Shown here one piece after another: positions 3,101 to 33,219 of a stretch of DNA of 64,000 bases (positions within the stretch are counted from its first letter, which is position 1; every line of letters begins with the position of its first letter). The stretch is from a virus. The position numbers and the translations under genes are program-made. The notes under the pieces were generated by a model. It was not told the DNA's origin, did no database searches, and saw nothing but the letters and a program-made list of their open reading frames with translations. The DNA lies in IMG/VR virus record IMGVR_UViG_3300008459_000008, positions 42,240 to 106,239 of that record. The stretch is one strand, 5' to 3'.

Positions 3101-4853
3101 TTCCACATCTCCAAATCCTACGACCGCAAACACAACCACAAGTAATGGGACTGGAACAGGTACATTTACAAGTAGTCTAACTGGACTATCTCCTTCTACT
3201 ACATATTATGTAAAGGCATACGCAATTAACACCACTGGTACGGGTTATGGTAATGAATTATCATTTACTACGACATCTTCTGGATCTTTTCCATCACTAA
3301 CAACTACTGCAGCAAGTGGTATATCTCAAACTACTGCATCTTCTGGTGGAAATGTGACTGCTGATGGTGGTTCAACGGTCACCGCAAGAGGAATTTGTTA
3401 CGCAACCACACAAAATCCAACCCTATCAAATACGGTAGTAAATAGTGGTTCGGGTACTGGTGTTTTTACAAGTTCATTATCTGGATTGACACCAAACACT
3501 ACTTATTATATCAGAGCCTTTGCTACAAATTCAAATGGAACAAATTTCGGAACACAAGTTTCTTTTACGACTTTATCCTCAATTACATTTCCCATTTTAA
3601 CAACAAATACAGTGACATCCATAACTTCAACATCAGCAACTTCTGGTGGTAATATTACAAGTGATGGTGGTGCTACTGTCACTGCAAGGGGGGTTTGTTA
3701 TGCCACAACACAAAATCCAACGACCTCAAATACAGTGATTACAAGTGGTTCAGGTACTGGAACATTTTCAGTGTCGATCACTGGTCTTACAAGTGGTGTA
3801 ACCTATTATGTTAGATCTTATGCTACTAATTCAGCGGGCACAAATTATGGAACCCAACAATCTTTTACAACTTTGGTCTTTCCTTCATTATCTACTACTT
3901 CCGCGACTAGTGTCACTTCTACAACTGCGACAACCGGAGGTAATGTAACTTCAGATGGTGGGGCTACAGTAACCGCTAGAGGTGTGTGTTATGCAACAAC
4001 ACAAACCCCAACCCTTTCAAATTCATTCACATCAAATGGTACCGGTGTGGGATCATTTACCAGTAGTTTAACTGGTCTAACTCAGAATACTACTTACTAT
4101 GTAAGAGCTTATGCGACTAATTCAGTTGGTACAAATTATGGTAGTCAAATCAGTTTTACGACTACTACTGGTGAGACTTTACCTACTGTAACGACTACCG
4201 CAGTGACTTCTGTGACTTCGAACAGTGCCTCTTCAGGTGGAAATGTTACAAGTTCTGGTTCACAATCTGTAACATCTAGAGGAGTAGTCTGGTCGACCTC
4301 AATAGATCCTACAGTGTCATTGACTACAAAAACTGTCAATGGTAGTGGAACAGGTACTTTCACTAGTTCAATAACATCACTATCAGCTTCTACTACTTAT
4401 TATGTAAGAGCTTATGCTACGAGTTCTGTTGGTACTGGTTATGGTAATAATGTTCAATTCACAACATCATCATCACCTACAGCATCTTGCACAGTGACTA
4501 CTTTTGCACCATACCAATTAAATGGTTTTTGGAGATTTAAATGGAATTTGAATTCGAATTGTAACAGCTACACTGTCACTGTAAGTAGATATAATTATAC
4601 GAGTTCTTCTGTCCAACCTCCAGTTGGAGCAACACCTGTTGCTACAGGTGCTAGATTGACCAACTATGTTCCCACGACCAATGAAATTTCTCAAGGATTT
4701 ATTGACCAACAAATGAATCCCCAACCTGCTACCACTGGATATTGGTACAGTTTTGATGTAAAATGTAATGCAACTTCTTGTAGTGGTTCAAACACTACTA
4801 GATCACCTTACTTCTATGTAGGTACTACTCCAGCATCGACAATCGGTAAATAA
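117..4853 (+). CDS. Secreted metzincin-like metalloprotease with 10 Fn3-like repeats
   Basis: The 1578-residue product starts with a flavobacterial signal peptide (residues 1-20, ending FSQ). After a prodomain-like stretch comes a metzincin zinc site, HEMGHNCGSSH at 344-354 (HExxHxxGxxH with catalytic Glu345), and a Met-turn-like IMSYC around Met415, as in reprolysin/M12B-type proteases. Residues about 455-1450 hold ten 90-100-residue repeats with the core RGVCYST...GTGTF...YYVRAYATN...YG...FTT, which read as fibronectin-III-like beta domains. A C-terminal domain (about 1455-1578) is shared with the next two genes. No T9SS sorting domain is visible. The protein probably acts outside the cell on proteins or glycoproteins. 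A protease with a signal peptide is very unusual in a phage. The substrate is unknown, and an adhesive role for the repeats is inference. Confidence 0.85.
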   Translation: MKNILLYLSCLLITSNLFSQVKMDVWNKNPNTSRTIAKINPSKLPVSFESTLPDGSTEIYDKWNVSDIEVETSTKKKYTFKPNAYKARKNLSILTYTENGWEGMYQSPDGSSYSMNPTSVTKDDTRPQGTLGGCETMIPANITINKIPERTPQTSNLLTNTQYYDPAITINKNLTVYAEVTNDLHVSLGNNLTTTQNWVTNLFLAVSNIYAQEGLTVTLNKIYVWQSVDPYGYQTTTTSSCILGGGSLYGSAFCTGFTDNIKNNLPVNPNNTTTNVTSHFKHLLHGRGSLGGIAWLGGNSDGYNPDTWNVVGTNLSTAVSGFTSTTIPSQATTGYNWPVYVTAHEMGHNCGSSHTQFCRWRNDQGAYLGRLDSCYKGENYNSTGYCTQETVEPCPANCTQTTYLTTKPNNNGTIMSYCHLNGSVNLSSRFGKYPRFAMRSSVDRTPYILNPISTLPEVASANVTSITSFTATCGGNVTFGGGSGVTARGVCWAPYPTEPTTANSKTLDGTGTGSFTSVMTNLTPAVTLYVRAYATNSAGTSYGGLRLFTPGPPVPPVLTTVPINTVGQTTAKSGGTISSGGGGTITRKGVVWSIFPIPDNTTINSEIGNTNDGTGTANFTSSITGLTLGVTYYVRAYAENEYGVGWGSELTFTTSTATTPSLTTNSVTTFTNTTATMGGNVTASGGASVSRRGVCYATTQNPTIANTVVNIGTGTGTFSQSVTGLSQGVTYYVRAFAENQAGLNYGTQVSFKTLTIPSVSTTAATNLATTSFTTGGNVTSAGGGSLTVTARGVCYSTSTSPSLTNGTVLSIGTGTGTFTTNITALTQGVTYYVRAYATNTYGTAYGSQITVKTLTVPTVTTTASTALSKTGFTTGGNVTSAGGGTLSVTERGIVYSTTVQDPTTSNTKVLAATPTGTGSYTISLTGLTPGTIYYVRAYAINSVGTGYGSRITVTTPSEPVLSTTSITSISTTTASSGGTITSSSGSTVTARGVCYSTSPNPTTANTTTSNGTGTGTFTSSLTGLSPSTTYYVKAYAINTTGTGYGNELSFTTTSSGSFPSLTTTAASGISQTTASSGGNVTADGGSTVTARGICYATTQNPTLSNTVVNSGSGTGVFTSSLSGLTPNTTYYIRAFATNSNGTNFGTQVSFTTLSSITFPILTTNTVTSITSTSATSGGNITSDGGATVTARGVCYATTQNPTTSNTVITSGSGTGTFSVSITGLTSGVTYYVRSYATNSAGTNYGTQQSFTTLVFPSLSTTSATSVTSTTATTGGNVTSDGGATVTARGVCYATTQTPTLSNSFTSNGTGVGSFTSSLTGLTQNTTYYVRAYATNSVGTNYGSQISFTTTTGETLPTVTTTAVTSVTSNSASSGGNVTSSGSQSVTSRGVVWSTSIDPTVSLTTKTVNGSGTGTFTSSITSLSASTTYYVRAYATSSVGTGYGNNVQFTTSSSPTASCTVTTFAPYQLNGFWRFKWNLNSNCNSYTVTVSRYNYTSSSVQPPVGATPVATGARLTNYVPTTNEISQGFIDQQMNPQPATTGYWYSFDVKCNATSCSGSNTTRSPYFYVGTTPASTIGK
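1480..4470 (+). repeat. Ten tandem Fn3-like coding repeats
   Basis: Ten units of about 280-300 bp encode domains that each begin with a P-x-[LV]-[ST]-T-type strand, then SGGN[VI]T, RGVC[YW], and end in FTT. Units share protein and DNA similarity but are not identical. Boundaries were placed by eye. Confidence 0.8.
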
Positions 4854-4878
4854 GGAATTATCCTCAAATAAAATTTGA

Positions 4879-4885
4879 ATATATA
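4879..4885 (+). promoter_or_regulatory. ATATATA box upstream of second metzincin gene
   Basis: ATATATA ends 24 nt before the start at 4910. The third metzincin gene has no such box and follows after 15 nt, so this box may drive both. Confidence 0.45.
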
Positions 4886-4909
4886 CAAAAAAAACATATC
4901 AAATACAAA

Positions 4910-7900
4910 ATGAAAAAGTTTCTGTTCTTTCTAACAAGTTTGATTTTAACGTTGAATTCGTTTGGTCAAGTGAAATTGAACGTTTGGGACAAAAATCCAA
5001 ATGTATCTAAAACAATCAATAATATAAAACCGAATAATTTACCAAAAACATTCGAGTCGTTGACACCGGATGGTGAAAAAACCATCTATGATAGATGGGA
5101 AGTTCCAGCTATAACAGTTGTGTCATCTAAAGGTAAGTCATACACAACAAAACCAGTGGCTTACAAATCAAGAAATGGATTTGGTGTCTTAACCTATTCC
5201 AAAAATGGGTGGCAGGGTTTACATTCTGGTAGGAGTGGTAAATTTTACTCAATGACACCTTCAAAGGTTAATGAGGACACATCGTCATTGAGATCAGTCG
5301 AAGAATATTGTGGAGGTGCAGGTTTACAACCAAGTAGCCAAAATATTGATCAAAAAAAAGACACAAAAAAGACTCCGTCGGTCGGTAGATTAACTAATAG
5401 TGATTTTTATAATCCATTAGTACCAATCAATAAAACTTGTAGTGTTTATGCAGAAATTGCTTTTGATCTACATACTGCGTTGGGTGGAAATCTAGCTACA
5501 ACTGAAGATTGGGTTACGAGACTTTTTCTAGGTATATCACAAATCTATTTGAATGAGGGTATAACAATATACTTGAATAAAGTTTATGTTTGGGAAGCGT
5601 TAGACCCATATGGATATACCACACAAACAGGTACACAGGATGTAGTTAGAAGTAATGTACTCAATCTATTCGGTGGAAAAATTTTAAATAATCTTCCAAC
5701 CAATCCAAATTCAAACTTTAAACATTTACTTACTAATGCTACTTATGGGGGAGTTGCTTACTACGGACCATTCACACCATCAGATGGATACACTCCCGCA
5801 AGCGATTTATTCGGTCCGACCAGTAGAGTAGGTCTATCTAGTATGAGTAACAAACTAGAGATAGCATCAACACCAACAGATTTAAGTGTTTACAACGATA
5901 GAAGATGGTGTTTACTTGTAGTTGCTCATGAGTTAGGTCATAATTTTGGTTCAAGACACACACAGTGGTGTGGTTGGAAAAGTGATGTTGGTACACTAAT
6001 TGGTAGACTAGACTCTTGTACAAATGGTGAAACTTCAAATCCACTAGGACCTAATTGTGGAGCAACTAGCTACCCATCATATAAACCGACCATAATGAGT
6101 TATTGTCAGTTCCATCAGAATGCTCCTGCTTTTTCACAATTTTTATCCAATGGTTTTGGAAAGTATCCTAGATTTAGTATAAGGACTGGATTAGCCAATT
6201 CATCAGACATACCTTATACAAATGCTTCGATACCAACACTTACCACAACCCCAATAGTTACCTATACCGCTACAACTGCTACATCGGGTGGTAACATCAC
6301 AAGTGATGGTGGTGCTAATGTAACCTCGAGAGGGGTGTGTTGGTCAACATCACCAAACCCGACAATATCGGGATCAAGAACTCTTGATGGTTCCTTTTCA
6401 GGGAGTTTTACTAGTAACATCACAGGTCTTTTAGGTGGAATAACTTATTACGTCAGAGCTTATGCAACCAATCAAGCCGGAACTGCTTATGGTAATGAAG
6501 TTAGTTTCACTACATCAGTACCCCTTGTACCAACACTATCGTCAACAACCGCCGCAACATCTATCACCAATAACAGCGCAACATCAGGTGGTAATGTGAG
6601 TGCAAATGGTGGTGGTTCAATTACCGCTAGGGGTGTTTGTTGGTCAACTTCAACAACCCCAACAATATCAAATTCGAGAACTAATGATGCTGTAGGTACA
6701 GGTACAGGCTCTTTCACAAGTAGTTTGACGGGTCTATCAGCTGGTACAACATACTATGTAAGATCTTACGCAACAAACAGTGCAGGAACGGGTTATGGAC
6801 CACAGATAACATTCTCAACATTTTCCGCATCTTCAATACTTATAAACACTACTGCTCTTACGGGATTAGCTCCCAAAAACGTGACGACGGGTGGAACAAT
6901 TACTTCAGACGGAGGTTCTGCAGTGACAGCAAGAGGGGTGTGTTGGTCAACAACAAGCCCACCAACTATATCGAATAGTAAGGTCAATACTGGAACAGGT
7001 ACAGGAACGTATACAAGTACGGTTAGTGGATTATCTCCATCTACGACATATTATTTGAGGTCATTTGCTACAAACTCTAGTGGTACAACATATGGTAATG
7101 AACTCTCCTTTACAACCACATCTGTTCCAACATTCATTAATGGTACTCCTAGTTATGTCTCACAAACATCTATAAAAACCAATTACACTATAAGTTTTCC
7201 AAATCAATCGTTTTCCAGCCATGCTTTGGGTGCTTCAACGACAAACCCACCGGATTCCTATAATCTGAATTCATCATCTTATACTTTTAATTCTGTATCA
7301 GGAACATACCAATCACTTCTCGGTAGAAAATCGACTTCACAAGGTCTTCAACCTTCAACGACATATTTTATTAGACCTATAGCAACAGACATATATGATA
7401 ATTTCTATTACGGACCAATAACACAAGCTACTACGCTTGCTCCTTCTCTACCTGTCTGTACTACGTATGTTGCAACTGAAGTTAGTACCCCGACTACAAA
7501 TGCATCGACCGCTAAATTGAGTGGTAAAGTTACATCAATAGGTGGGGCTATCACAGAAAGAGGTTTTTGTTATTCTACAACACAAAATCCAACCACATCA
7601 AATAGTAAAGTTACTACAACAACTTGTTCATCGGATGATGATTGTTTATTATCATTTACAAACACAGTGGCTAATTTTACTCCTGGTACTACCTACTATG
7701 TAAGATCCTACGCGATAAATCCAAGTGGTGTTGGTTATGGGAATCAAGTATCATTCACAACACCGATTTATGTCTATCAAGGACCACCAATAGTCGTTAT
7801 TGACTCAATCAGAAACATCTCAACTGTTGGTGCTAAACTTTATGGTCGAGTGACAAACAGAGGGGGTTCTGATTGTGTATTGAGTAGTGGATGTAGAGGT

Positions 7901-10900
7901 GTAGTTATAAGTGCAGTCACAAATAGTCCATCGAGTGGATGTGGAGTAGATGCAAACTTTGATCCTATATGTTGGTCATTTGTTGAAACTCCAAATGTTC
8001 AAAGTATAACAGGTGCTTTTGAAGTGGATTTCCAGGCAGGCAATCAATTGATGAAAGCAAATACAACTTATTATGTTAGGGCATACGCCACTAATTTTTT
8101 CGCAAATAACCAAAACAATTACGGATACTCCGCAACAAGTACATTTAAAACATTATTAACTGGAACAACACCCCTACTTTATACCAACACTACTGTGAGT
8201 ATCACAACCACGAGCGCAACAAGTGGTGGATTTATAACTTCACAGGGTGGTGCAAGTGTCACTCAAAAGGGAGTAGTGTGGTCTACATCTCCAAATCCAA
8301 CCACATCACTTTCTACAAAAACTTCTAATGGAACAGGCACTGCAGCTTATTCAAGTAATATGACAGGTCTCACACCTAATACTTTATACTATGTAAGAGC
8401 ATACGCTGTAAATAGTTTTGGAACATCTTATGGTCCTCAAGTACAATTCACTACAAATGCGAGTGCCGGACTAGCCACATTAACAACTACATCAGTCACA
8501 AATTTATCTACAACATCGGTGACATCAGGTGGTAACATTACAAACAGTGGTGGTACAAATGTTACTGCAAGAGGCGTATGTTACTCCACATCAACTAACC
8601 CAACAATAACTAACGGCACAGTTGTCGCGAGTGGTTCTGGTACAGGATCGTTCACAACAAATATCACTGGATTGATTCAAGGTAATACTTATTTTTTAAG
8701 GGCTTTTGCTACAAATACTTCCGGTACAAGTTATGGTAATCAAGTACAAATCACTACACTAACACTACCATCAATAACCACTACCGTCGCAAGTAATGTA
8801 ACCAGCACAACAGTAATTACTGGTGGTAATGTAACATCGGATGGTGGTTCGACTATTACGGAAAGAGGTGTCTGTTATGAAACAACACAGAACCCAACTA
8901 CAGGAAATTTTAAACTAGTATCAACTGGCACGACAGGTACGTTTACATCAAACATAACTGACTTGACACCAGGCACAACTTACTATGTAAGGGCATACGC
9001 TATAAATTCTGTAGGAACTCAATACGGAACTCAAATAAGTTTTACTACCACCGCAGCACAAACAGTACCCACTGTGACAACAACTAATCCAACATCTATC
9101 ACAACTAACACGGTAAGTAGTGGTGGTACTGTTAGTTCGGATGGTAATTCCACGGTTTCATCAAGAGGTGTTGTTTGGTCAACATCTTCGGGTCCAACAA
9201 TCAATCTTACAACTAAAACGGTTAATGGTAGTGGAACTGGTAGTTTCACAAGTTCAGTTGGAGGTCTTTTACCGGGTGTACTTTACTACATAAGAGCTTA
9301 TGCTACAAATTCAATTGGTACATCTTATGGTTCAGAATTCACATTCACCACTTTAACAACTACACCCACATTATCTTCTACCATTACAGCATCAAATATA
9401 ACTCAGACCTCAGCAATCTCAGGAGGAAACGTTACAAGTGATGGTGGGATAACAATTACTGAAAGGGGGGTATGTTGGTCAACATCAAGTAATCCGACTG
9501 TTAGTCTAAGTACAAAAACAATAGATGGATCTGGTGTTGGTAGTTTTGTTAGCGATCTCACAGGATTATCTGCGAGTACTACTTATTATGTTAGAGCTTA
9601 CGCTACTAATTCAAATGGTACTAGTTATGGAACACAAATATCATTTACTACTTTATCATCAACTACGGTTCCTACTGTCACAACCACAACCGCCTCATCA
9701 ATTACATTAACATCGGCCGTATCAGGTGGTAATGTGACTTCGGACGGAGGTACTGTTGTGACTGTGAGGGGGGTAGTTTGGTCTACATCTCCTTCACCGA
9801 CAGTATCTTTAACAACTAAAACTCAAGATGGTACAGGAATTGGTACGTTTACAAGCTCTATGACCGGTTTAACCGCGTCAACAATTTACTATTATAGAGC
9901 ATATGCGACTAACTCTCAAGGGACATCATATGGTAATCAACTATCATTTACCACCACTGCAAACTTACCTGTTGTGACAACAACAAACGTAAGTTCCGTC
10001 ACACTCACAGGTGCTGTTTCTGGTGGTAACGTAACATCAACTGGTGGAGCAACAGTCACAGCAAGAGGGGTATGTTGGTCAACATCACCTAATCCTACAA
10101 TATTGAACTCAAAGACAACTGATGGAAGTGGGACTGGTACATTTACAAGTACTATCTCTAATTTATCACAAAATACAACCTATTATGTCAGAGCATACGC
10201 AACTAACTCATCTGGTACCGCATATGGGACAGAATTACAATTCATCACATCAAACACATCTTTACCAACTGTTAATACAACATCTGTCACATCTATAGAT
10301 TTCACAAGTGCTATATCTGGAGGTAATGTGGTATCAGACGGTAATTCAACAGTGACATCGAGAGGTGTGGTGTGGTCTGAAACACAAAATCCAACCCTTA
10401 GTAATTCATTTACAGTAGATGATAATGGTACTGGTACATTTACAAGTAATCTCACAAATTTGACTGCCGGCGTCACATATTATGTAAGAGCGTATGCAAC
10501 AAATTCCTTAGGTACATCATATGGAAACCAAGTATCATTCGCAACAATACCTGGTCAAGCACCAGAGGTATCAACAAACATTATAAATAACGTCACATCC
10601 ACTAATGCTGAAGTTGTTTATAGTATAAACTCAATAGGTGGTGGAACATTATCATTAAAAGGTATTTGTTATTCTACATCTCCGAACCCCACAACATCTA
10701 ATCAGAAGGTAGAAGAAGTCTGTGCAATTGAGACCCCATGTGAGATCGGTCAATATACAATTACTTTCATAAATCCATTGTCTCCAAATGTGACTTATTA
10801 TGTAAGAGCCTACGCAACAAGTGAATTTGGAACCTCATATGGAGAAGAACTTTCCTTCACAACATTGATTAATTTCCCAACACTCACAACCACATCTATA

Positions 10901-12121
10901 TCTGAAATAACATCAACTACAGCTAGTAGTGGTGGTACTATAGTAGACGTGGGTGGTGGGTCTATAAGTGCGAAGGGAGTTTGTTGGTCAACTTCATCAA
11001 ATCCTACACTTAATAATTCATTCACAACTGATGGAAGTGGTCCGAATTTCTTCTCTAGTCAAATTACAGGATTATTACCTGGTGTGTTATACTATGTAAG
11101 ATCATACGCCACTAATCAAACTGGTACAAATTATGGAAATCAAGTTACGTTCACTACAATATCAGTGTCTGTACCTACACTAACAACAAATAGCGTCACT
11201 TCAATTACTAACTCATCTGCTATATCCGGTGGAAATATCACATCAGATGGGGGGTCTACTATAACAGCAAGGGGAGTTGTTTATTCCACATCACAAAATC
11301 CAACCTTATCAAATAATAGAACGTTTGACGGTTCGGGAATTGGTTCGTTTAGTTCTTCTATAACTGGTTTATCACCTGGTGTTACCTATTATGTTAGATC
11401 ATATGCGACCACATCGGGTGGTACAGGATACGGACAACAAAATATTTTTACAACTTCTGGTTCAATTCCAACTGTATCTACCACCACAATTACAAACATT
11501 AGCTCGTCAGGTGCGACGTCTGGTGGTAATGTAACATCGTCTGGCGGATCTTCAATCACTTCTAGAGGGGTTGTTTGGTCAACATCTCCAAATCCAACTG
11601 TATCTTTATCAACCAAGACATCAAATGGAACAGGAACAGGAATATTTACAAGTACAATAATCGGATTATCCCCATCAACACTTTATTATGTTAGATCTTA
11701 CGCTACAAACAGTACAGGTACTGCATATGGTACAGAGTTAACATTTACAACTTCATTGAGTGGTGGTGGAAGTTGTGCGATTGGTGGTCTAACAGTTACA
11801 AGAGTTAATAATGCTTGGAACTTTACATTTAACATAAATCCAAATTGTACAAGTTATACGGTGAACGTGTGTAGATATTCAAATACTAACCCAGCAATAC
11901 CACCAACTGCAGGTCAAACACCAGTAGCATGTGCGGTTAGAAATAACATGACTAGTTATGTACCAACTTCTTCGGAAATAAGCGCTGGTGTTATAACAAG
12001 AGTGATGAGTCCACCACCAGCCAATACCGGTGTGTGGTACAGTGTTGACGTAACTTGTAATGGTACTTGTACAGGTACCAAAACTACTAGGTCTGCATAT
12101 TTCTATAATCCAATCCCATAA
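4910..12121 (+). CDS. Giant secreted metzincin-like metalloprotease with about 18 Fn3-like repeats
   Basis: This 2403-residue paralogue of the gene at 117 has the same order: signal peptide 1-20 (ending SFGQ), prodomain-like region, zinc site HELGHNFGSRH at 340-350, Met-turn TIMSYC about 65 residues later, an array of Fn3-like repeats (about residues 435-2280), and the shared C-terminal domain. I count 18 repeats; the 4th to 6th and the 15th are divergent, lacking the SGGN or RGVC core or carrying insertions. It is the largest gene in the window. All zinc ligands and the catalytic Glu are present, so activity is expected. Role outside the cell is inferred from the signal peptide; the target is unknown. 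Confidence 0.85.
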   Translation: MKKFLFFLTSLILTLNSFGQVKLNVWDKNPNVSKTINNIKPNNLPKTFESLTPDGEKTIYDRWEVPAITVVSSKGKSYTTKPVAYKSRNGFGVLTYSKNGWQGLHSGRSGKFYSMTPSKVNEDTSSLRSVEEYCGGAGLQPSSQNIDQKKDTKKTPSVGRLTNSDFYNPLVPINKTCSVYAEIAFDLHTALGGNLATTEDWVTRLFLGISQIYLNEGITIYLNKVYVWEALDPYGYTTQTGTQDVVRSNVLNLFGGKILNNLPTNPNSNFKHLLTNATYGGVAYYGPFTPSDGYTPASDLFGPTSRVGLSSMSNKLEIASTPTDLSVYNDRRWCLLVVAHELGHNFGSRHTQWCGWKSDVGTLIGRLDSCTNGETSNPLGPNCGATSYPSYKPTIMSYCQFHQNAPAFSQFLSNGFGKYPRFSIRTGLANSSDIPYTNASIPTLTTTPIVTYTATTATSGGNITSDGGANVTSRGVCWSTSPNPTISGSRTLDGSFSGSFTSNITGLLGGITYYVRAYATNQAGTAYGNEVSFTTSVPLVPTLSSTTAATSITNNSATSGGNVSANGGGSITARGVCWSTSTTPTISNSRTNDAVGTGTGSFTSSLTGLSAGTTYYVRSYATNSAGTGYGPQITFSTFSASSILINTTALTGLAPKNVTTGGTITSDGGSAVTARGVCWSTTSPPTISNSKVNTGTGTGTYTSTVSGLSPSTTYYLRSFATNSSGTTYGNELSFTTTSVPTFINGTPSYVSQTSIKTNYTISFPNQSFSSHALGASTTNPPDSYNLNSSSYTFNSVSGTYQSLLGRKSTSQGLQPSTTYFIRPIATDIYDNFYYGPITQATTLAPSLPVCTTYVATEVSTPTTNASTAKLSGKVTSIGGAITERGFCYSTTQNPTTSNSKVTTTTCSSDDDCLLSFTNTVANFTPGTTYYVRSYAINPSGVGYGNQVSFTTPIYVYQGPPIVVIDSIRNISTVGAKLYGRVTNRGGSDCVLSSGCRGVVISAVTNSPSSGCGVDANFDPICWSFVETPNVQSITGAFEVDFQAGNQLMKANTTYYVRAYATNFFANNQNNYGYSATSTFKTLLTGTTPLLYTNTTVSITTTSATSGGFITSQGGASVTQKGVVWSTSPNPTTSLSTKTSNGTGTAAYSSNMTGLTPNTLYYVRAYAVNSFGTSYGPQVQFTTNASAGLATLTTTSVTNLSTTSVTSGGNITNSGGTNVTARGVCYSTSTNPTITNGTVVASGSGTGSFTTNITGLIQGNTYFLRAFATNTSGTSYGNQVQITTLTLPSITTTVASNVTSTTVITGGNVTSDGGSTITERGVCYETTQNPTTGNFKLVSTGTTGTFTSNITDLTPGTTYYVRAYAINSVGTQYGTQISFTTTAAQTVPTVTTTNPTSITTNTVSSGGTVSSDGNSTVSSRGVVWSTSSGPTINLTTKTVNGSGTGSFTSSVGGLLPGVLYYIRAYATNSIGTSYGSEFTFTTLTTTPTLSSTITASNITQTSAISGGNVTSDGGITITERGVCWSTSSNPTVSLSTKTIDGSGVGSFVSDLTGLSASTTYYVRAYATNSNGTSYGTQISFTTLSSTTVPTVTTTTASSITLTSAVSGGNVTSDGGTVVTVRGVVWSTSPSPTVSLTTKTQDGTGIGTFTSSMTGLTASTIYYYRAYATNSQGTSYGNQLSFTTTANLPVVTTTNVSSVTLTGAVSGGNVTSTGGATVTARGVCWSTSPNPTILNSKTTDGSGTGTFTSTISNLSQNTTYYVRAYATNSSGTAYGTELQFITSNTSLPTVNTTSVTSIDFTSAISGGNVVSDGNSTVTSRGVVWSETQNPTLSNSFTVDDNGTGTFTSNLTNLTAGVTYYVRAYATNSLGTSYGNQVSFATIPGQAPEVSTNIINNVTSTNAEVVYSINSIGGGTLSLKGICYSTSPNPTTSNQKVEEVCAIETPCEIGQYTITFINPLSPNVTYYVRAYATSEFGTSYGEELSFTTLINFPTLTTTSISEITSTTASSGGTIVDVGGGSISAKGVCWSTSSNPTLNNSFTTDGSGPNFFSSQITGLLPGVLYYVRSYATNQTGTNYGNQVTFTTISVSVPTLTTNSVTSITNSSAISGGNITSDGGSTITARGVVYSTSQNPTLSNNRTFDGSGIGSFSSSITGLSPGVTYYVRSYATTSGGTGYGQQNIFTTSGSIPTVSTTTITNISSSGATSGGNVTSSGGSSITSRGVVWSTSPNPTVSLSTKTSNGTGTGIFTSTIIGLSPSTLYYVRSYATNSTGTAYGTELTFTTSLSGGGSCAIGGLTVTRVNNAWNFTFNINPNCTSYTVNVCRYSNTNPAIPPTAGQTPVACAVRNNMTSYVPTSSEISAGVITRVMSPPPANTGVWYSVDVTCNGTCTGTKTTRSAYFYNPIP
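6215..11755 (+). repeat. About 18 tandem Fn3-like coding repeats
   Basis: About 18 units of roughly 280-330 bp. Long near-identical stretches around the RGVCWSTS and YYVRAYATN segments make the array prone to recombination with the arrays in the flanking genes. Confidence 0.8.
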
Positions 12122-12136
12122 AAAAACTAAAATTGA

Positions 12137-15100
12137 ATGAAAAAGTTTCTTCTACTAATTCTATTGACACTAACTTCCGTTCTGTCCTTTGGGCAGACGG
12201 AAGTTGATATTTGGAAAAAATCCAACAAAAAAATATTTTCTCAAAGAAAATTTACATTTCCAAAAACATTTGTTTCCAAATCACCATCAGGTAAACAATT
12301 GACTTACCAACGTGTGGAACATCCATATATCAAGATAGAAACATCTAGTGGTAAGAAATGGACAAAGAAACCAATTATTTATCAATCTACTTCAGATTTT
12401 GGTGTAATAACATATGACGGTAAAAATTGGAGTGGTATACATACAGAGGATGGATACAATGTAAGTAACTTGACGAAAGAAAAGGTTACTAATGTCAAAA
12501 TGGATGCTGAAAAATTCAGTTTTGGTGAAGGAGATGTTTTACTCGCGCCCACAAAATCAAATAAAAAGATAGGAAGGTCAATCCAAAACAATCCAAATTT
12601 TTATGATCCTTACATCAGAATTAATAAAACTTGTGGAGTTTATGTGGAAGTAACAAATGATTTATATAAATTTTGGGGTTCAGATACTGGTAGAGTAACA
12701 CAGTATGTTACAACTATACTAACAAATGTTATAGCTCTATATGACAGAGAGGGTATAAATGTCACATTGAATAAAATTTTTGTTTGGGACACACCTGATC
12801 CTTATGGAAACCCATTCGATAATACACAGTATCTAAATCAATTTACAGATAACATCAACAAAAATATACCAACTACACCAGAATCTCATTTTAAACACTT
12901 ATTACACAATAAGAATTTGGGTGGTATAGCTTGGATAAATGGTGAATCAGATGGATACATCACATCTGCAAATCTTGATCCATACTATACCTGTGCGGTC
13001 ACAGGAATTGGTTCAAATATAGTAGTTAATTCTAATGTCACTTATTCTTGGCCAGTAATGTGTTTCACACATGAAATGGGACACAATCTTGGTTCAAAAC
13101 ATACTCATTGGTGTGGATGGAAAAATGAATCCAATCAAGCCATAGGTAGAATTGACAGTTGTTACAGAGGAGAAAGCACAGATGGGCCAGATAATTGCAC
13201 GTCATCTACTTATACAGTAGTTAAATCAAACAACAGAGGCTCTGTAATGAGTTATTGTCATCTGAATGGTGCCATAAGTTTCACAACTGGATTTGGTAGA
13301 TTACCAAGATATTCAATAAGATCTAATCTAAATGATGCACCAGAGGTGCCATTTGACACACCACAAGTTCCAACAGTAACTATTGATACTGGTACTCAAA
13401 AAACAGCTACTTCTGTTTTAATGACTGGAAATATTGTAATGACTGGAGAAACTATAATTCAAGAAAGAGGTTTCGTGTGGACAAATTCACAAATCATAAT
13501 GCCTACATTGAATTTGACAACTAAAATTGCGGTCGGCTCAGGTAGTGGAACATTTCAATCACAAATTACAACATTAACTGCAGGAGGACGTTTTTGGTTT
13601 AGGGCATATGCGAAAAATGCTACTGGAGTTTACTATAGTGATACAGTAAGGGTACAATTGGTCTCAACGTCTGTACCAAGTCTGACGACAAATCCTGTAA
13701 CTCTAATTACAAATATATCGGCTCAAACTGGTGGCACATACATATCGATTGGTAATATTTCAATTCAAGAAAGAGGTATAGTGTACAGCACTTCCAATCA
13801 ACTTCCTACCGTAGATGACACTAAAGTGATCACACCATCACCAAATAACACAAACTTCGTTCAGAATTTGACGGGTCTAACTCCCAACACCACTTATTAC
13901 ATAAGGGCTTTTGCTAGAAATAGTCCGTCAATTTTTTCTTACGGAAATGTACAAACTTTTCAAACTTTACCAAATGAGTCGGTATCTTTTGGAGTACCTT
14001 TAGCTACCGTCAATAGTAGTACACAAATAACCCCTAGTGTTTTTATCACATCTACTGGTAATGGTGGGGTCATATCTGAAAGAGGTTTCTACATAGGAAC
14101 TACACCAAATCCTGAAAATAACATACTTAATAAAAGAGTTGCGGTTTTGGGACAAGCCACTACTATGGCATTAGCTATAATAAATCTAACACCCAATACA
14201 CTTTATTATATCAAAGGTTTTGCGACCACTCAATTTGGTACTTTTTATACACCCGAATTCACATCCACTACACTTAGGAGTATACTAGTGATGGATGAAG
14301 TTAGTGGAATAGAAGCTACTAAAGCTACGTTCAAATATACTATTGGTCCAACTACATCTATCATACCATCATCAGGTGTTTTGTTATCAACCAACATAAC
14401 ACCAACTAGAGCAAACAGTCAGTTCTTTTTTCAATCGACATATGTTGGACAAGGACAAGGCACAATTGTTGGACAAGACCTACTTCCAAATACGACTTAC
14501 TATGCTAGAGGGGTAATACCATTTACTTCTGGTGATTTCTTTTCAACTAATATACTACAGTTTCAAACTACGGGAGTTGTTGGTACTCCATCGGTTAGTA
14601 CTTTGGGATCACCCACAAAAACAAAAAATTCGATTGTAGTTAGAGGTGAAGTTGTGTCAACTGGATCATCACCTGTATTTAACAGGGGAATTTGTTATTC
14701 AACCGCACCAAATCCTACTATAAATAATTCAGTTATTGTATCAGGTCAGGGGATTGGTCAATATATTGTAACTATAAACAATTTAGTACCTAGTACAATA
14801 TATTATATTAGAGCGTATGCTACCAACAAGTCCGGCACTTCTTATGGTTCAGAAATTAATATTTCAACCAGTGGTGATATCCCAACAATCATAACAAACT
14901 CAATCAACAACATTTCATTAACCACTGCTAATGGAGGTGGTGAAATAACTCTTTCGGGTGGACGTGTTGTTACATCTAGGGGTGTAATTTGGTCAACCAA
15001 TCCCAATCCAACAATAAATTTGTCTACAAAAACAGTAGATGGTAGCGGAATTGGCATATTCACAAGTGCAATCACTGGATTGGTACAGAATACGAAATAT

Positions 15101-16153
15101 TATGTCAGAGCTTATGCCATAAATGATAATGGGGTTGGATATGGTAATGAAATTAATTTCACTACTTTGCCTAGTCCAACTACAGCAAATGTAATAACAA
15201 ATATTGTCACAAATATTTTACCAACATCAGCGACATCCGGTGGTAATGTTACTTATGATGGTGGAACACCTGTGGTATCCAAGGGGATTTGTTGGTCGAC
15301 TTCTCAGAACCCAACAATCGACCTTACCACAAAAACTATGGACGGTAGTGGATTGGGTCCCTTCGTTAGTCAGATATCCAACTTGACCCTCGGCAACACT
15401 TACTATGTAAGGGCTTACGCTGTTAATTCTACTGGAACTAGTTATGGTGTACAGTATTCATTTACAACTTCGTTAGGCATCCCAATCGTTTTGACTAATC
15501 CGGTAAGTGGGATTACAATAACATCAGCGAGTGTTGGAGGGAATGTAACTTCTTCTGGAAATGCACCTGTAACTCAGAGAGGAATTTGTTGGTCAATAAA
15601 TCAGAACCCAACAACAAGTGATAATATAGTACCAAGTGGAAACGGAACTGGAGTTTTTTCCGGAAATATATTAGGACTATCCTCCTCCACAACATATTTT
15701 ATCAGAGCTTATGCTACAAACTCTTTGGGAACTTCCTATGGATCACAGATTTCATTTACCACTTCACCACAATCTGGAGGTACTTGTCAAATATCTGGAC
15801 TAACATCCTATCTAAATCAAACGAACAAATGGGAATTTAATTACAATATAAATTTAAAATGTGCTACATATTCTGTAAATGTGTGTAGGTATAATTACAC
15901 AGATCCTAATAGTCAACCACCTTCAAATTTACAACCAACAAGTTGTGGAGTAAGAAATAGCATGAATGCTTATGTACCAACAATCCAAGAAACAAATAAT
16001 GGGTACATCCAAAAAGAAATGATACCTCAACCGACGGCTTCGACAAAATCTGGTTTTGGTGGATATTGGTACAGCATAGATGTCAGATGTTCATCACAAA
16101 ATTGTTTGGGATCAAATTTGACTAAATACTATTTTTATGTACCAGGTATGTAA
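12137..16153 (+). CDS. Secreted metzincin-like metalloprotease with about 8 Fn3-like repeats
   Basis: The third paralogue (1338 residues) starts 15 nt after the previous stop, so the two are probably co-transcribed. It has a signal peptide (1-20, ending SFGQ), the zinc site HEMGHNLGSKH at 312-322, a Met-turn-like VMSYC, about eight Fn3-like repeats (residues about 410-1205, the first five divergent), and the same C-terminal domain (about 1210-1338). The repeats differ more from each other than those of the two upstream genes, so this copy may be older or under other selection. It is followed by a phage tail gene on the same strand. Confidence 0.85.
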   Translation: MKKFLLLILLTLTSVLSFGQTEVDIWKKSNKKIFSQRKFTFPKTFVSKSPSGKQLTYQRVEHPYIKIETSSGKKWTKKPIIYQSTSDFGVITYDGKNWSGIHTEDGYNVSNLTKEKVTNVKMDAEKFSFGEGDVLLAPTKSNKKIGRSIQNNPNFYDPYIRINKTCGVYVEVTNDLYKFWGSDTGRVTQYVTTILTNVIALYDREGINVTLNKIFVWDTPDPYGNPFDNTQYLNQFTDNINKNIPTTPESHFKHLLHNKNLGGIAWINGESDGYITSANLDPYYTCAVTGIGSNIVVNSNVTYSWPVMCFTHEMGHNLGSKHTHWCGWKNESNQAIGRIDSCYRGESTDGPDNCTSSTYTVVKSNNRGSVMSYCHLNGAISFTTGFGRLPRYSIRSNLNDAPEVPFDTPQVPTVTIDTGTQKTATSVLMTGNIVMTGETIIQERGFVWTNSQIIMPTLNLTTKIAVGSGSGTFQSQITTLTAGGRFWFRAYAKNATGVYYSDTVRVQLVSTSVPSLTTNPVTLITNISAQTGGTYISIGNISIQERGIVYSTSNQLPTVDDTKVITPSPNNTNFVQNLTGLTPNTTYYIRAFARNSPSIFSYGNVQTFQTLPNESVSFGVPLATVNSSTQITPSVFITSTGNGGVISERGFYIGTTPNPENNILNKRVAVLGQATTMALAIINLTPNTLYYIKGFATTQFGTFYTPEFTSTTLRSILVMDEVSGIEATKATFKYTIGPTTSIIPSSGVLLSTNITPTRANSQFFFQSTYVGQGQGTIVGQDLLPNTTYYARGVIPFTSGDFFSTNILQFQTTGVVGTPSVSTLGSPTKTKNSIVVRGEVVSTGSSPVFNRGICYSTAPNPTINNSVIVSGQGIGQYIVTINNLVPSTIYYIRAYATNKSGTSYGSEINISTSGDIPTIITNSINNISLTTANGGGEITLSGGRVVTSRGVIWSTNPNPTINLSTKTVDGSGIGIFTSAITGLVQNTKYYVRAYAINDNGVGYGNEINFTTLPSPTTANVITNIVTNILPTSATSGGNVTYDGGTPVVSKGICWSTSQNPTIDLTTKTMDGSGLGPFVSQISNLTLGNTYYVRAYAVNSTGTSYGVQYSFTTSLGIPIVLTNPVSGITITSASVGGNVTSSGNAPVTQRGICWSINQNPTTSDNIVPSGNGTGVFSGNILGLSSSTTYFIRAYATNSLGTSYGSQISFTTSPQSGGTCQISGLTSYLNQTNKWEFNYNINLKCATYSVNVCRYNYTDPNSQPPSNLQPTSCGVRNSMNAYVPTIQETNNGYIQKEMIPQPTASTKSGFGGYWYSIDVRCSSQNCLGSNLTKYYFYVPGM
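13365..15765 (+). repeat. About 8 Fn3-like coding repeats, divergent
   Basis: Eight units by eye. The last three keep the RGVCWST core and the earlier ones are degenerate. Confidence 0.65.
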
Positions 16154-28200: not shown

Positions 28201-28695
28201 ATGAACGCTTATACCCAAGAGGAAATTGATAGGATTAATAAAGTCAAAGAAACTAATGATAAATTAGAAGAATATTTCCTTCAACGAAGAGAAGAATGGA
28301 ATAATAATCTTTCACCACTTTTTGATGTTATAAAAATGAGTTTAACTACCGAAAATTCTCAGAAAATTTTGGAAGTTCAATCACTTGCATTAAGCTATAG
28401 ACAAGCTTTGAACGAACAAATTTCATTCTTTTTAAATAAAAGAAGTAAAGAAGAAGTAAAAAATAAAAAAATCAGACAAGATAAGTTTGTTTTCTATGCA
28501 ACCGGATTTGGATTGAAAACAAACACTGGTGAAAAATCAATTTTGATAGATGCTCACCTTGCAGAAAATGATAGAAATATATTACTAATCGAAAACCATA
28601 TTGAGTTTTTGAGAAACAGTTCAAAAAATCTTGAAAGTCTTGGATATACTATCAAGAACATTATTGAATTGATGAATTATTTAGGAGGACGATAA
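28201..28695 (+). CDS. Unknown helical protein
   Basis: A 164-residue, strongly helical and charged protein (NAYTQEEIDRINKVKETNDK at the start) with likely coiled coils at both ends and a less helical middle (FVFYATGFGLKTNTGEKSIL). No domain recognised. Its end overlaps the end of the convergent gene at 28681 by 15 nt. Confidence 0.7.
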   Translation: MNAYTQEEIDRINKVKETNDKLEEYFLQRREEWNNNLSPLFDVIKMSLTTENSQKILEVQSLALSYRQALNEQISFFLNKRSKEEVKNKKIRQDKFVFYATGFGLKTNTGEKSILIDAHLAENDRNILLIENHIEFLRNSSKNLESLGYTIKNIIELMNYLGGR

Positions 28696-29823
28696 GTGTT
28701 CTAAGGCTTTTTCAACCAAATCTCTATAACCTTGATAATCATTATCATTGAGTATGTCATTTAACATAGCCTTCAACAACGTCCTTCTACTTTCAAAACC
28801 AGGATCATAAATGTCTCCACTGGTCGAGGTTAACTCTATACAATTCTTACCTGGTGCATTATGCAATTTACCGTTTTTTTCATTCAATAAAGCTAATGTA
28901 TCCACAAATGGATAAAAGGCAAAATTCCACTTAGTTAATTGAACATTTATGTGTGACAAATAAACCTTGTCATTGTAATTGAAAAATAGTGATTCCAAAC
29001 CATCTGAAACATTTTTATTTTTCATCACCCAACCTTTATCTTTTGCGTAATTTTTGAACTTTATCATATCACTGTCATTTGCACAATATATCCTATCCAT
29101 AAAATATTCAGCAGGACATCCATCTACCTTTTTATCAAGTTTCCATATAAGAGCTCTACCTAAAACTTTATTATCTTGATTTACATAAGCTAATAATTGA
29201 CATACTTCTGGATTCTCTTTATAAATTCCGAAGTATCTCTGACAAACTGTATACCTCATACAAGAAGCACCCAACTGACCTTTATCAGGATAAGCATAAT
29301 TCATAAAATCATAATAGTAAGGAATTTCATCACCACTTATCAATTTGAATTCATTAGAAACTACAACAAATTCTGATTTGTATAAATTTACAAAATCTTC
29401 ATAATCCTTCTGAGTTAATCCTTGAATATGATCTTCGACAAAAGACAAATCTAAATCTTCAATTACATTGGGGTCACTTAGTAATGCTTGAGCAAATCTA
29501 CCAATCCTAATTTGGCCTCTGCCTGAAACATCATAATATTTTGAATTATCTTCATCCCACTGCATGGGTGTTCTTTTAGCTCTTTGATCGGATAAAAATG
29601 AAACCATTTCTGGTTCATTTGTAACATCAATCCAGTTTTGTGGAAGGTCTTTTACAATATAATATTCTTCACCAAAAAGAACATATAATATTTCAGCTAC
29701 TTTACTTTTATCTCTTATCTTATTTAATCTTGATAAAAATTCAGGTGATGCATTCAAATCGTTTTCTAGTATCAAAGAAATGACTTGTTTTTCAAGAATA
29801 AACCCATCAAAATTATTTATCAT
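28681..29823 (-). CDS. SCMR-family protein A (unknown function)
   Basis: I take the ATG at 29823 (380 residues); an ATATATA box at 29831-29837 precedes it by 7 nt, and the longer frame back to 29886 would contain the box. The product has a core GASCMRYTVCQRYFGIY ... GRALIWKL ... DRIYCANDSD ... FKNYAKDKGW shared with the genes at 31972 and 56095, so the phage has three paralogues. The conserved Cys pair, Arg/Tyr residues and GRAL motif look like an active or binding site of a globular domain, but I do not recognise a family. The N-terminus MINNFDGFILEKQ fits a motif seen in several genes here. Confidence 0.7.
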   Translation of the reverse strand: MINNFDGFILEKQVISLILENDLNASPEFLSRLNKIRDKSKVAEILYVLFGEEYYIVKDLPQNWIDVTNEPEMVSFLSDQRAKRTPMQWDEDNSKYYDVSGRGQIRIGRFAQALLSDPNVIEDLDLSFVEDHIQGLTQKDYEDFVNLYKSEFVVVSNEFKLISGDEIPYYYDFMNYAYPDKGQLGASCMRYTVCQRYFGIYKENPEVCQLLAYVNQDNKVLGRALIWKLDKKVDGCPAEYFMDRIYCANDSDMIKFKNYAKDKGWVMKNKNVSDGLESLFFNYNDKVYLSHINVQLTKWNFAFYPFVDTLALLNEKNGKLHNAPGKNCIELTSTSGDIYDPGFESRRTLLKAMLNDILNDNDYQGYRDLVEKALEHLSSS

Positions 29824-29845
29824 AAGTTTATATATATTTTTTGTT

Positions 29846-29870
29846 ATATTGAATAATATTCTTACATTTG
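29846..29870 (+). promoter_or_regulatory. Host-type (Bacteroidota sigma-A) promoter
   Basis: A TTG at about 29841-29843 is followed after 19 nt by TACATTTG (29863-29870), a match to the Bacteroidota -33/-7 consensus TTG ... TAnnTTTG. The ATG of the T9SS-cargo gene is 3 nt downstream, so the message is leaderless or nearly so. Confidence 0.65.
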
Positions 29871-29873
29871 TAT

Positions 29874-30803
29874 ATGGTAAAATCAATCTTTCTGATAGTT
29901 ATATTATTTGTCACCACAAATTCAAATTGTCAAACTTTTATCCAACCCAACAGCCACTGGCACCGTATGTGGGACTTCGTATCTTGTCCAGGTTTAGGGT
30001 ATGATCACCACAGGTATGTAGGAGACACTCTATTCAACAATAATTCCTATTCCAAAATAGAAAATAAACAATATTCTGTATACTTGGACCAAATGAATGG
30101 GACACAAAATTATTATATTCATCAAAAAAAATCAACTTACTTGAGACAAAGCTTTGACACAATTTTTATTTTTGATGAAGAGTATTCTGAGGATAGATTT
30201 GGGTGGTCTCAAAACCCAAGTGTTGGTGAATTATATTATCTTGGTAAGGTCAAAAATTTTATCTCTCAAAACGATATTAAAGTTTATTCGAGGGTAGATT
30301 CTATTTCAACCGAAATCATACAAGGGCAGGAAACTAAATGGATTTATTCAACTACGAATTTAGATTCTTTAGGCAATCCAATAAATTATTATACCACAAA
30401 ATTTAATTATATTATCAAATTAAACACTTTGATGGGTCCAATAACTGAATGGATAATTCCAAGTACAACTTCTCTTTCTTGTTTTGAGTCATCAATCACC
30501 ACCAAGATAAATTATTCTGGTCTAGATTGTAATGCTGGACTTGATTTTGATTGTGAGACTACAACTCATAGTCACGAAAATAAACTGAATGATATAAAAA
30601 TATATCCAAATCCGATTATTGATTATTTTACAATCACGAATTGCAAAAATAAAATTATTAGTTTGAGAAACACTGATGGTAAACAATTATCTAAGACAAC
30701 GATTATATCTGACAATCATAAGATAGATCTGAAATTTTATCCCAATGGAACGTATTTTATTTTTTTGGATGAAAAATTTTTACAAAGAATTGTAAAAATT
30801 TAA
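29874..30803 (+). CDS. Secreted protein with T9SS type A sorting domain
   Basis: The start is the ATG at 29874 (309 residues), giving a signal peptide MVKSIFLIVILFVTTNSNCQ. The C-terminal 75 residues (IKIYPNPIIDYFTITNC ... GKQLSK ... LKFYPNGTYFIFLDE ... RIVKI) show the hallmarks of a type IX sorting domain: YPNP start, a central N/D-G-K turn, a [Y/F]xxGxYF strand and a basic end. Such domains take proteins across the outer membrane of Bacteroidota. The middle part is beta-rich, without known motifs. A host-type promoter lies directly upstream. The protein depends on the host T9SS, so it should be exported during infection or lysogeny-like carriage. Confidence 0.8.
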   Translation: MVKSIFLIVILFVTTNSNCQTFIQPNSHWHRMWDFVSCPGLGYDHHRYVGDTLFNNNSYSKIENKQYSVYLDQMNGTQNYYIHQKKSTYLRQSFDTIFIFDEEYSEDRFGWSQNPSVGELYYLGKVKNFISQNDIKVYSRVDSISTEIIQGQETKWIYSTTNLDSLGNPINYYTTKFNYIIKLNTLMGPITEWIIPSTTSLSCFESSITTKINYSGLDCNAGLDFDCETTTHSHENKLNDIKIYPNPIIDYFTITNCKNKIISLRNTDGKQLSKTTIISDNHKIDLKFYPNGTYFIFLDEKFLQRIVKI

Positions 30804-30840: not shown

Positions 30841-30990
30841 GAAGTAGTGTAATATAGTTCTCGGAAACTAACGGAATATAAAAAGCACAGACCGCCTGAC
30901 CCTGGCAATAGATCTTACATCATGCTTGTAAGAACGGTAAAGTTGAGGTGAATGCCGTTAATCCTCAGAATTCAATTGAGCCCCGACCCT
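30841..30990 (+). ncRNA. Candidate structured RNA of unknown family
   Basis: The 270-nt gap between coding genes has more G+C than its surroundings and ends in a strong terminator. By hand it folds as a rod: 30856-30861 pairs with 30967-30972, 30869-30874 (TAACGG) with 30955-30960, and a 7-bp apical hairpin is 30913-30919 with 30927-30933. Between the last two is a large internal bubble, a layout reminiscent of 6S RNA. A competing stem (30945-30948 with 30963-30966) is possible. The 5' end and promoter are not clear. I cannot assign a family. Confidence 0.5.
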
Positions 30991-30992
30991 CT

Positions 30993-31024
30993 AAAAAAGT
31001 CCGAATTTTTTCGGACTTTTTTTT
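30993..31024 (+). terminator. Strong intrinsic terminator
   Basis: A 13-bp stem (30993-31005 with 31010-31022, core GTCCGAA/TTCGGAC) is followed by a T run. It ends the candidate RNA and insulates the next gene. Confidence 0.9.
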
Positions 31025-31052
31025 GTTTTAGTATAAAATTGTTATATCTTTG
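31023..31052 (+). promoter_or_regulatory. Host-type promoter
   Basis: TTG (31023-31025), a 19-nt spacer, and TATCTTTG (31045-31052) match the Bacteroidota consensus. The ATG at 31075 is 22 nt downstream. Confidence 0.7.
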
Positions 31053-31074: not shown

Positions 31075-31950
31075 ATGTCAACATTCCTATTCTCTCGTGG
31101 TTATAAAAAGTATAACAAAGTAGATCTGTTCAAAAAAATTGATGCAGTTGAAATCTTTCGTGAAGGCAGCCAAATCATCACTAAATATTTCAATCGTGTA
31201 GTGAATAATACACCGGTTTCTGACCGTTATGAGGTATTTGACATTCGTTCCTTTATGAAATCTAAAATTGAATTGTTGGAGGCAAATTTCAACATCAGTT
31301 TCTATAATTTCCGTATGAAAGGAGGTATCCAAGAACTCATTCTTCTCTCAGATGAAGTAGAAATCGCTGGTTCTAATTACTATAAAGCTTTCTTTATTCT
31401 TAATTCATCAGACAAATCTCGTCGTCTCAATATGAACCTCGGTCTTTATCAAGCTGATAATGGTGTTTACCTTGTCAATTCCATTAAGAATTTTTCACTT
31501 ACTACCAAACACCTCAAGGGTATTACCGATAAAGCTGAAGTTGCTTCCACACACATTGATGTTGAAACTTTTGACGAACAAATCCAATCCATCCGTTCAT
31601 TGGTAGGGGAAAGAGTGATGATGTCCCAAGTTAGAAATATCATCATCGATAAAGACCAAAAGGTAAACCATAATAAGTTTGACGCACTTAAGAATGTGCT
31701 ACGTTGGAACTATTCTAAAAGTTTTACTAAAGAACAAATTGGTATAATTTTAACACCTAGTGAGAAATTAACTATCAATACATCTAATGACTTCTCTATT
31801 GATGCTTTCACTGTGTTTCTAGCTTATATGAACGTGTTCCGAAACCAAGATTCGTATGTTGTTAGGAAAGAAACTGAGAAGATTTTGAAAATCACACAGT
31901 GCTTCATTCGTGAAGAAAAGTTAGCACAGCTTTTGGATATGTTGGATTAA
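31075..31950 (+). CDS. Unknown protein with atypical codon use
   Basis: The 291-residue frame is taken from the ATG at 31075, since the upstream extension crosses the terminator. The product (MSTFLFSRGYKKYNKVDLFK ...) has a mixed alpha/beta look with no motif I can name. It uses CGT for 11 of 15 arginines, one CGA and only three AGA/AGG, whereas its neighbours use AGA almost exclusively. This, with its host-type promoter, suggests recent acquisition from a different genome or selection for high expression by host tRNAs. Confidence 0.8.
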   Translation: MSTFLFSRGYKKYNKVDLFKKIDAVEIFREGSQIITKYFNRVVNNTPVSDRYEVFDIRSFMKSKIELLEANFNISFYNFRMKGGIQELILLSDEVEIAGSNYYKAFFILNSSDKSRRLNMNLGLYQADNGVYLVNSIKNFSLTTKHLKGITDKAEVASTHIDVETFDEQIQSIRSLVGERVMMSQVRNIIIDKDQKVNHNKFDALKNVLRWNYSKSFTKEQIGIILTPSEKLTINTSNDFSIDAFTVFLAYMNVFRNQDSYVVRKETEKILKITQCFIREEKLAQLLDMLD

Positions 31951-31971: not shown

Positions 31972-33219
31972 ATGGCATACACAAGAAAAACATCTGATAT
32001 AATTACCTCACACGATTTGGATTATATCCTTCATCAAATGAAGGATAAATCTGAAGTTGCTAGACTACTTATTAAGCAAAGACACCCGATTGAAAATTTA
32101 GTTGATGATCACATTAATTATATTTCGATATCAAGTTCTGATTGTACTAAAATTTCTTACTTAACATCAGAGAGAATTGATGCCCTATTATCCAATGGTG
32201 AAGATCTTTGGACATCTAGTAAAAGATTTCATATCAAACCAGGTGCCTTTATTGGTAAAATATTTAAAAATATCCCACCACGCGAGGTAGAATTATTTTC
32301 TACTTTATTCAGAAATATTCAAACTAAAATAGAAATGGAATTCCGTGTGGTGAGTGGATCGTATATTTACCCCTACTATCATCATTCATCCTACCTAAAT
32401 GAAAATGGTTCATTAGGTGCCTCTTGTATGAAGTATGACCAATGTCAAGACTACTTAGACTTATATACACTGAATTCCAATACGGTTAGTCTTTTAGTTC
32501 TGTTGAATAATAGAAATAAACTCATAGGCAGAGCCTTACTCTGGTCAATTGGAGACACTAAAATTATGGATAGAATTTATACAGTCAATGATGAAAACTA
32601 TCAATACCACTTTAAAAAGTGGGCTGATGATAACGGTTATTGGTATAAAAAAGAACAAAGATGGAATAACACACTTTATTTCGAGCAGAAGGGAAAAGTA
32701 GACTATAAAGAACTTGAAATACAACTTAAGAATTTTGATTTTGAATATTACCCATATATGGATACTTTCAAATTTGTCGATTTGAAGAATGGTGTATTAT
32801 ACAACTATCAGCCAAATGGTGTAAAATTCAATACTATTTCCTCAGCAGAAGGTAAAGTTCAATCAGATAGTATTTATTCAATGTGTGAAAAAACAAAAAC
32901 TTTCCATTCAAGTGATTATATTAATTATGTACCAAATAGAGGAATAAGAGTTTGTGCTGATTTGACTGTTTATTCGGATATCTATGACATTTATATTCTG
33001 AGAGAAGATGCTAGATATGATCAAGATTTGGGTGATTGGATTTATCAAGATGACGATTTAAACAATGATATTTTAATTGAAAAGAAAAAATCTGAAGTTA
33101 AGTCAAACTCACGTTGGGTAGATTTATCAAACGTTCCAATTGAATATCATCTGATTTCGGAGGAAGACAACGAAGAGGTTCCTCCTCCACCACCACAAGA
33201 GGAATATTCACCCTTTTAA
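31972..33219 (+). CDS. SCMR-family protein B (unknown function)
   Basis: A 415-residue paralogue of the products at 28681 and 56095, with GASCMKYDQCQDYLDLY, IGRALLWS, DRIYTVNDEN and FKKWADDNGY around residues 140-225, then NFDFEYYPYMDTFKFVD as in the longest copy. The C-terminal part includes a stretch like VYSDIYDIYILREDARYDQD that resembles the Tyr/Asp-rich repeats of the 56095 product, and it ends in a proline-rich tail (EEVPPPPPQEEYSPF). It has a host-type promoter, unlike its two paralogues, which have ATATATA boxes. Confidence 0.75.
   Translation: MAYTRKTSDIITSHDLDYILHQMKDKSEVARLLIKQRHPIENLVDDHINYISISSSDCTKISYLTSERIDALLSNGEDLWTSSKRFHIKPGAFIGKIFKNIPPREVELFSTLFRNIQTKIEMEFRVVSGSYIYPYYHHSSYLNENGSLGASCMKYDQCQDYLDLYTLNSNTVSLLVLLNNRNKLIGRALLWSIGDTKIMDRIYTVNDENYQYHFKKWADDNGYWYKKEQRWNNTLYFEQKGKVDYKELEIQLKNFDFEYYPYMDTFKFVDLKNGVLYNYQPNGVKFNTISSAEGKVQSDSIYSMCEKTKTFHSSDYINYVPNRGIRVCADLTVYSDIYDIYILREDARYDQDLGDWIYQDDDLNNDILIEKKKSEVKSNSRWVDLSNVPIEYHLISEEDNEEVPPPPPQEEYSPF

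Follow-up and report, generated by a model that had tools for sequence, protein, structure and literature searches.

The window analysed here, 64,000 nucleotides spanning positions 42,240 to 106,239 of the IMG/VR virus record IMGVR_UViG_3300008459_000008, contains a gene (29874-30803, plus strand) whose product, P0001, carries a sorting domain of the type IX secretion system (T9SS). The gene is intact, its sorting domain scored above curated cut-offs, it lies in phage context as a clean insertion, and the body of its product has kin among bacterial T9SS-tagged proteins. The best explanation, to which we assign a probability of about 0.8, is that a T4-type phage of the Mahaphage lineage, with a Bacteroidota host, acquired a Bacteroidota family gene together with its export signals, and that the product is exported by the type IX machine of the host.

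The whole record, a virus contig of 106,239 bases, represents a fragment (106 kb) of a huge phage of the T4 type; its genes include those for a T4-type terminase, portal protein, clamp loader and baseplate wedge. Comparison of terminase identities placed it in the Mahaphage lineage, the most similar terminases being those of known members: LR756502 (642 kb) and LR745206 (634 kb), both with 64% identity, LR756504 (636 kb, 44%) and LR756501 (735 kb, 42%). The next distinct record outside this group was Tenacibaculum phage PTm1 (33%). The largest genomes reported by Al-Shayeb et al. (PMC7162821) belong to the Mahaphage clade, and the five largest were predicted to have Bacteroidetes hosts. Because the terminase is nearest to those of the 634-735 kb phages, for which this host prediction was made, the host of the present phage is probably also a member of the Bacteroidota. 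The Bacteroidota -7 promoter box (TAnnTTTG) was rejected as host evidence; one copy lies just upstream of the P0001 gene, and the motif was not enriched upstream of the open reading frames (ORFs) of this genome. No tRNAs were found in the stretches searched. Separately, the plus strand at 117-16153 encodes three very large proteins in a row (1578, 2403 and 1338 aa), which resemble one another at their C-termini and have signal-like N-termini. The first of them showed a match to a reprolysin-like metallopeptidase and fn3 domains, and none had a T9SS tag recognised in the PF18962 search of the record.

The P0001 coding sequence runs from the ATG at 29874 to the TAA at 30801-30803 with an intact frame of 309 aa, and its base composition is already phage-like. 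The N-terminus, MVKSIFLIVILFVTTNSNC|QT, is basic at its start and hydrophobic in its core, with a plausible cleavage site; a good match to the lipobox consensus was not found in it. Residues 1-19 (29874-29930, plus strand) were thus read from the sequence as a predicted Sec-type signal sequence, with putative cleavage between C19 and Q20, in agreement with the signal peptide proposed in the original prediction; the assignment was made by eye and passed a crude signal-peptide rule.

The type A C-terminal sorting domain (CTD) occupies residues 243-309 (30600-30800, plus strand). The hallmarks named earlier were all located as claimed, with YPNP at residues 244-247 and a DGK turn and an NGTYF strand also present. 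Furthermore, the profile search that had been suggested as a check indeed gave scores above the curated cut-offs for both families: 26.4 bits for TIGR04183 (E 5e-6, residues 243-296; cut-off 23 bits) and 34.0 bits for PF18962 (E 3.7e-8, residues 243-300; cut-off 27 bits). P0001 was the sole match to the sorting-domain search in the entire 106-kb record, for PF18962 even at E <= 10. A CTD profile built from bacterial proteins gave P0001 59.7 bits, whereas 5000 shuffled versions of these residues reached 14.7 bits at best; since the seeds of this profile had been fetched with P0001, the Pfam and NCBIfam profiles are the independent tests. The original prediction had also ascribed a T9SS-type C-terminal architecture to the adhesin at 58114-60366, and this claim received no support: its tail was recognised neither by TIGR04183 or PF18962 nor by hhalign against the phage CTDs. 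In this protein, the N-terminus is signal-like, and a stretch of the C-terminal part resembles the domain preceding the CTDs in bacterial proteins.

The AlphaFold model of the P0001 CTD is an all-beta sandwich with a pLDDT of 81. The solved T9SS CTDs 8glk_D, 8qb1_A and 5ag8_A were among its fold matches, with E values of 0.02-0.13, none of them significant. The top fold match, also non-significant, was a contractile injection system cap protein. Phage particles often carry Ig-like domains, and this fact and the top fold match would both fit a CTD that is a small Ig-like beta-sandwich for the virion or for attachment rather than an export signal. We consider this very unlikely, because the CTD occurs together with a signal sequence, as it does in nearly all phage CTD proteins examined here, Sec export is not required for virion proteins, and the body of P0001 matches bacterial secreted proteins.

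Searches with the whole protein found no PHROGs family and no close relative in the viral, plasmid and bacterial collections searched. Bacterial matches to whole P0001 were rejected as relatives, since they had essentially the CTD alone in common with it, and weak matches to Cas8f/Csy1 (E 0.007-0.03) were attributed to chance. When the body (residues 20-238; 29931-30587, plus strand) was searched directly against 396 Bacteroidota genomes, a single match (E 1.3e-4) emerged, which was also judged to be chance. The family assignment of the body comes from a family of Bacteroidota T9SS-tagged proteins of about 300 aa, whose layout is similar to that of P0001. A consensus written for this family led to real members in 9 of 297 genomes, and a profile was built from these without P0001. 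This profile matched the body with 27.7 bits (E 3.4e-7), against 13.3 bits for the best of 2000 shuffles, and P0001 stood apart from unrelated ORFs. Moreover, P0001 and the family (L119-L132) are collinear from the signal sequence through the GDT..N..Y.K, VDSI and L.C motifs to the CTD. The body therefore matches this family, and on these profile and alignment results P0001 is probably a member of it. Unlike P0001, the family members are cellular proteins, likewise with type A sorting domains, and some genomes carry several paralogues; the identity between P0001 and the best-compared member is about 25%. A Pfam scan of one member found no domain over the body, and no family members were confirmed among viral contigs.

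Comparison of the flanks with three related phages (contigs L145, L146 and L151) placed the insertion at 29845-30803, the left edge being approximate. To its left lies a phage gene on the minus strand (28681-29823; matched stretch 28681-29886), which is 75-83% identical in the three relatives and directly adjoins the right flank there. The gene to the right (31075-31950, plus strand; 78-83% identity in L145 and L146) starts with MSTFLFSRGY at 31075 rather than with the longer ORF from 30952, and its homologues in L145 and L146 begin at the equivalent methionine. These two contigs (95 and 465 kb, respectively) are syntenic, and in both of them the flanking genes, 78-83% identical, are directly adjacent, separated by about 280 bases that contain no gene. 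L151 shows the same junction, with a left gene of 75% identity, and lacks the P0001 gene. The DNA on either side of the P0001 gene could be aligned to the uninterrupted junction of the relatives, and the gene therefore accounts for a clean length difference of about 0.95 kb. Because P0001 is missing from all three relatives and its own relatives are bacterial, an insertion appears more likely than three losses; absence from the three syntenic relatives also means that P0001 is not conserved in the lineage.

For a metagenome record in which both the body and the tag of P0001 are bacterial in kind, contamination with bacterial DNA or a chimeric assembly would be conceivable. The clean junction counts against this: the foreign part is limited to a single gene, and to the left and right of it the conserved phage backbone continues, a conserved intergenic stretch included. 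In addition, CTD proteins occur independently in other phage records, and we regard this explanation as extremely improbable.

The conserved intergenic stretch (30850-31030, plus strand) comprises about 180 bases with a terminator-like hairpin at its end and is a candidate phage noncoding RNA. It has counterparts at L145:6885-7065, L146:6870-7065 and L151:9370-9590. Two positions of the hairpin stem are changed on both sides in this small set of four genomes, although the overall covariation term was not favourable, and no Rfam family matched the stretch at the gathering score. Around the insertion site, the genes at 28681-29886 (minus strand) and 31972-33219 (plus strand) are mutual paralogues with about 28% identity across the relatives; no Pfam or PADLOC family matched this pair with a meaningful score.

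Judged by profile matches, T9SS tags are frequent among these giant phages. PF18962 scored above its cut-off in six of 50 related records, including fragments down to 22 kb, and also in LR756502 and LR756504. At least one tag above the cut-off is present in each of the four checked genomes of 634-735 kb (LR756502, LR745206, LR756504 and LR756501). The bodies of the tagged proteins differ, being cohesin-like, F5/8 type C, Fib_succ_major or of no recognised type, and BLAST of P0001 against the 50 related records found no relative, with the CTDs alone in common. The crude signal-peptide rule was passed by 9 of 11 CTD proteins in the fetched loci and by 16 of 181 other ORFs (Fisher p 1e-7, a value that is too small because the proteins are related and the loci were chosen); the two CTD proteins that failed the rule look signal sequence-like by eye. 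LR756502 and LR745206 share a protein with a signal sequence and a CTD, encoded next to a DnaJ-like gene and the gene of a large protein, and its presence in the same place at 31% identity indicates that some phage CTD cargo has long been kept. A 465-kb related phage has four sorting-domain matches within 45 kb (G039:C1:397792-442545), two of them over the cut-off, which possibly represent a cargo cluster. In LR756501, the protein at L104:5379-6719 carries its sorting domain in mid-protein (residues 84-154), with a Fib_succ_major domain after it, an unusual arrangement since the tag is normally terminal.

No T9SS tag was found in T4, phiKZ, Bacillus phage G, Sphingomonas phage PAU or Stenotrophomonas phage Moby, in the huge uncultured phages LR745208, LR756508 and LR756511, or in six cultured Bacteroidota phages (crAss001, phi14:2, FCL-2, PTm1, MA9V-2 and MaF61). 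Prevotella phage Lak-C1, counted as a Mahaphage (PMC7162821), also gave no match, so the tag is not universal in the clade. Many huge-phage records, often fragments, gave no sorting-domain match. A tblastn search with a generic CTD consensus found only three phage records and a generic CTD pattern scan of viral contigs confirmed nothing; both are too insensitive for estimating prevalence.

P0001 could also be a passenger, a gene recently picked up from a host with a real T9SS tag, of no benefit to the phage and heading for loss, in which case any export would be immaterial. Its absence from the same site in the three relatives and the lack of a close relative in any phage searched are consistent with this possibility. 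However, the frame is intact and the base composition is phage-like. The lineage also repeatedly carries other proteins with a T9SS tag, one of which is encoded at a conserved position; we therefore consider a passenger unlikely. A broader reading, quite possible though short of probable, is that huge phages of the Mahaphage lineage keep a changing set of type IX-addressed proteins and may thereby reshape the infected Bacteroidota cell's surface from the inside, the P0001 gene being one interchangeable item of this set.

In the favoured explanation, acquisition of a Bacteroidota gene for a type IX-exported protein, we infer host identity, expression, export, surface location and function as follows. 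A huge phage of the Mahaphage lineage with a Bacteroidota host would have gained a Bacteroidota family gene complete with its export signals. P0001 would be made in the cytoplasm during infection, cross the inner membrane via Sec and fold in the periplasm, where its type A CTD could be recognised by the type IX machine of the host. The protein would then be passed through the outer membrane and be either anchored on the cell surface or released. Our leading guess at its function, a tentative one, is that P0001 changes the surface of the infected cell and so hinders a second phage. The original prediction of a phage-encoded cargo of the host T9SS is borne out in its computable parts, namely the profile matches, the phage contig, the lineage with predicted Bacteroidetes hosts and the independent tagged proteins in related huge phages. 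If P0001 is indeed exported, phages use a bacterial surface-display machine during infection, which would offer a route to superinfection exclusion or to a change of the Bacteroidota surface. For giant phages seen only in metagenomes, the tag could also be of help in indicating the host phylum.

A literature search, conducted mostly outside subscription papers, found none linking T9SS to Mahaphages, and as far as this search shows, the tag pattern (4/4 of the 634-735 kb genomes, 0/6 of the cultured Bacteroidota phages) is undescribed. The four Mahaphages with terminases 42-64% identical to that of the contig are each tagged, and P0001 had no whole-protein BLAST relative among the Mahaphages tested, sharing the CTDs alone. 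Phage-encoded T9SS cargo as such is already published (PMC7468147, PMC6949934), and P0001 adds to it. Bellas et al. (2020; PMC7468147) described cryophage genes with T9SS type A sorting domains, as in P0001, and proposed that the phages hijack the host system. The bodies of the cryophage cargo are an endoglucanase, a GH39 protein and a PA14 protein, all encoded by variable genes, whereas P0001 has a different, non-enzymatic-looking body and belongs to a huge-phage lineage. Similarly, de Jonge et al. (2019; PMC6949934) reported gut-phage ORFs with T9SS sorting domains, one of them fused to a BACON-containing ORF; these and P0001 are alike in being phage ORFs with sorting domains but differ in both the phages and the bodies.
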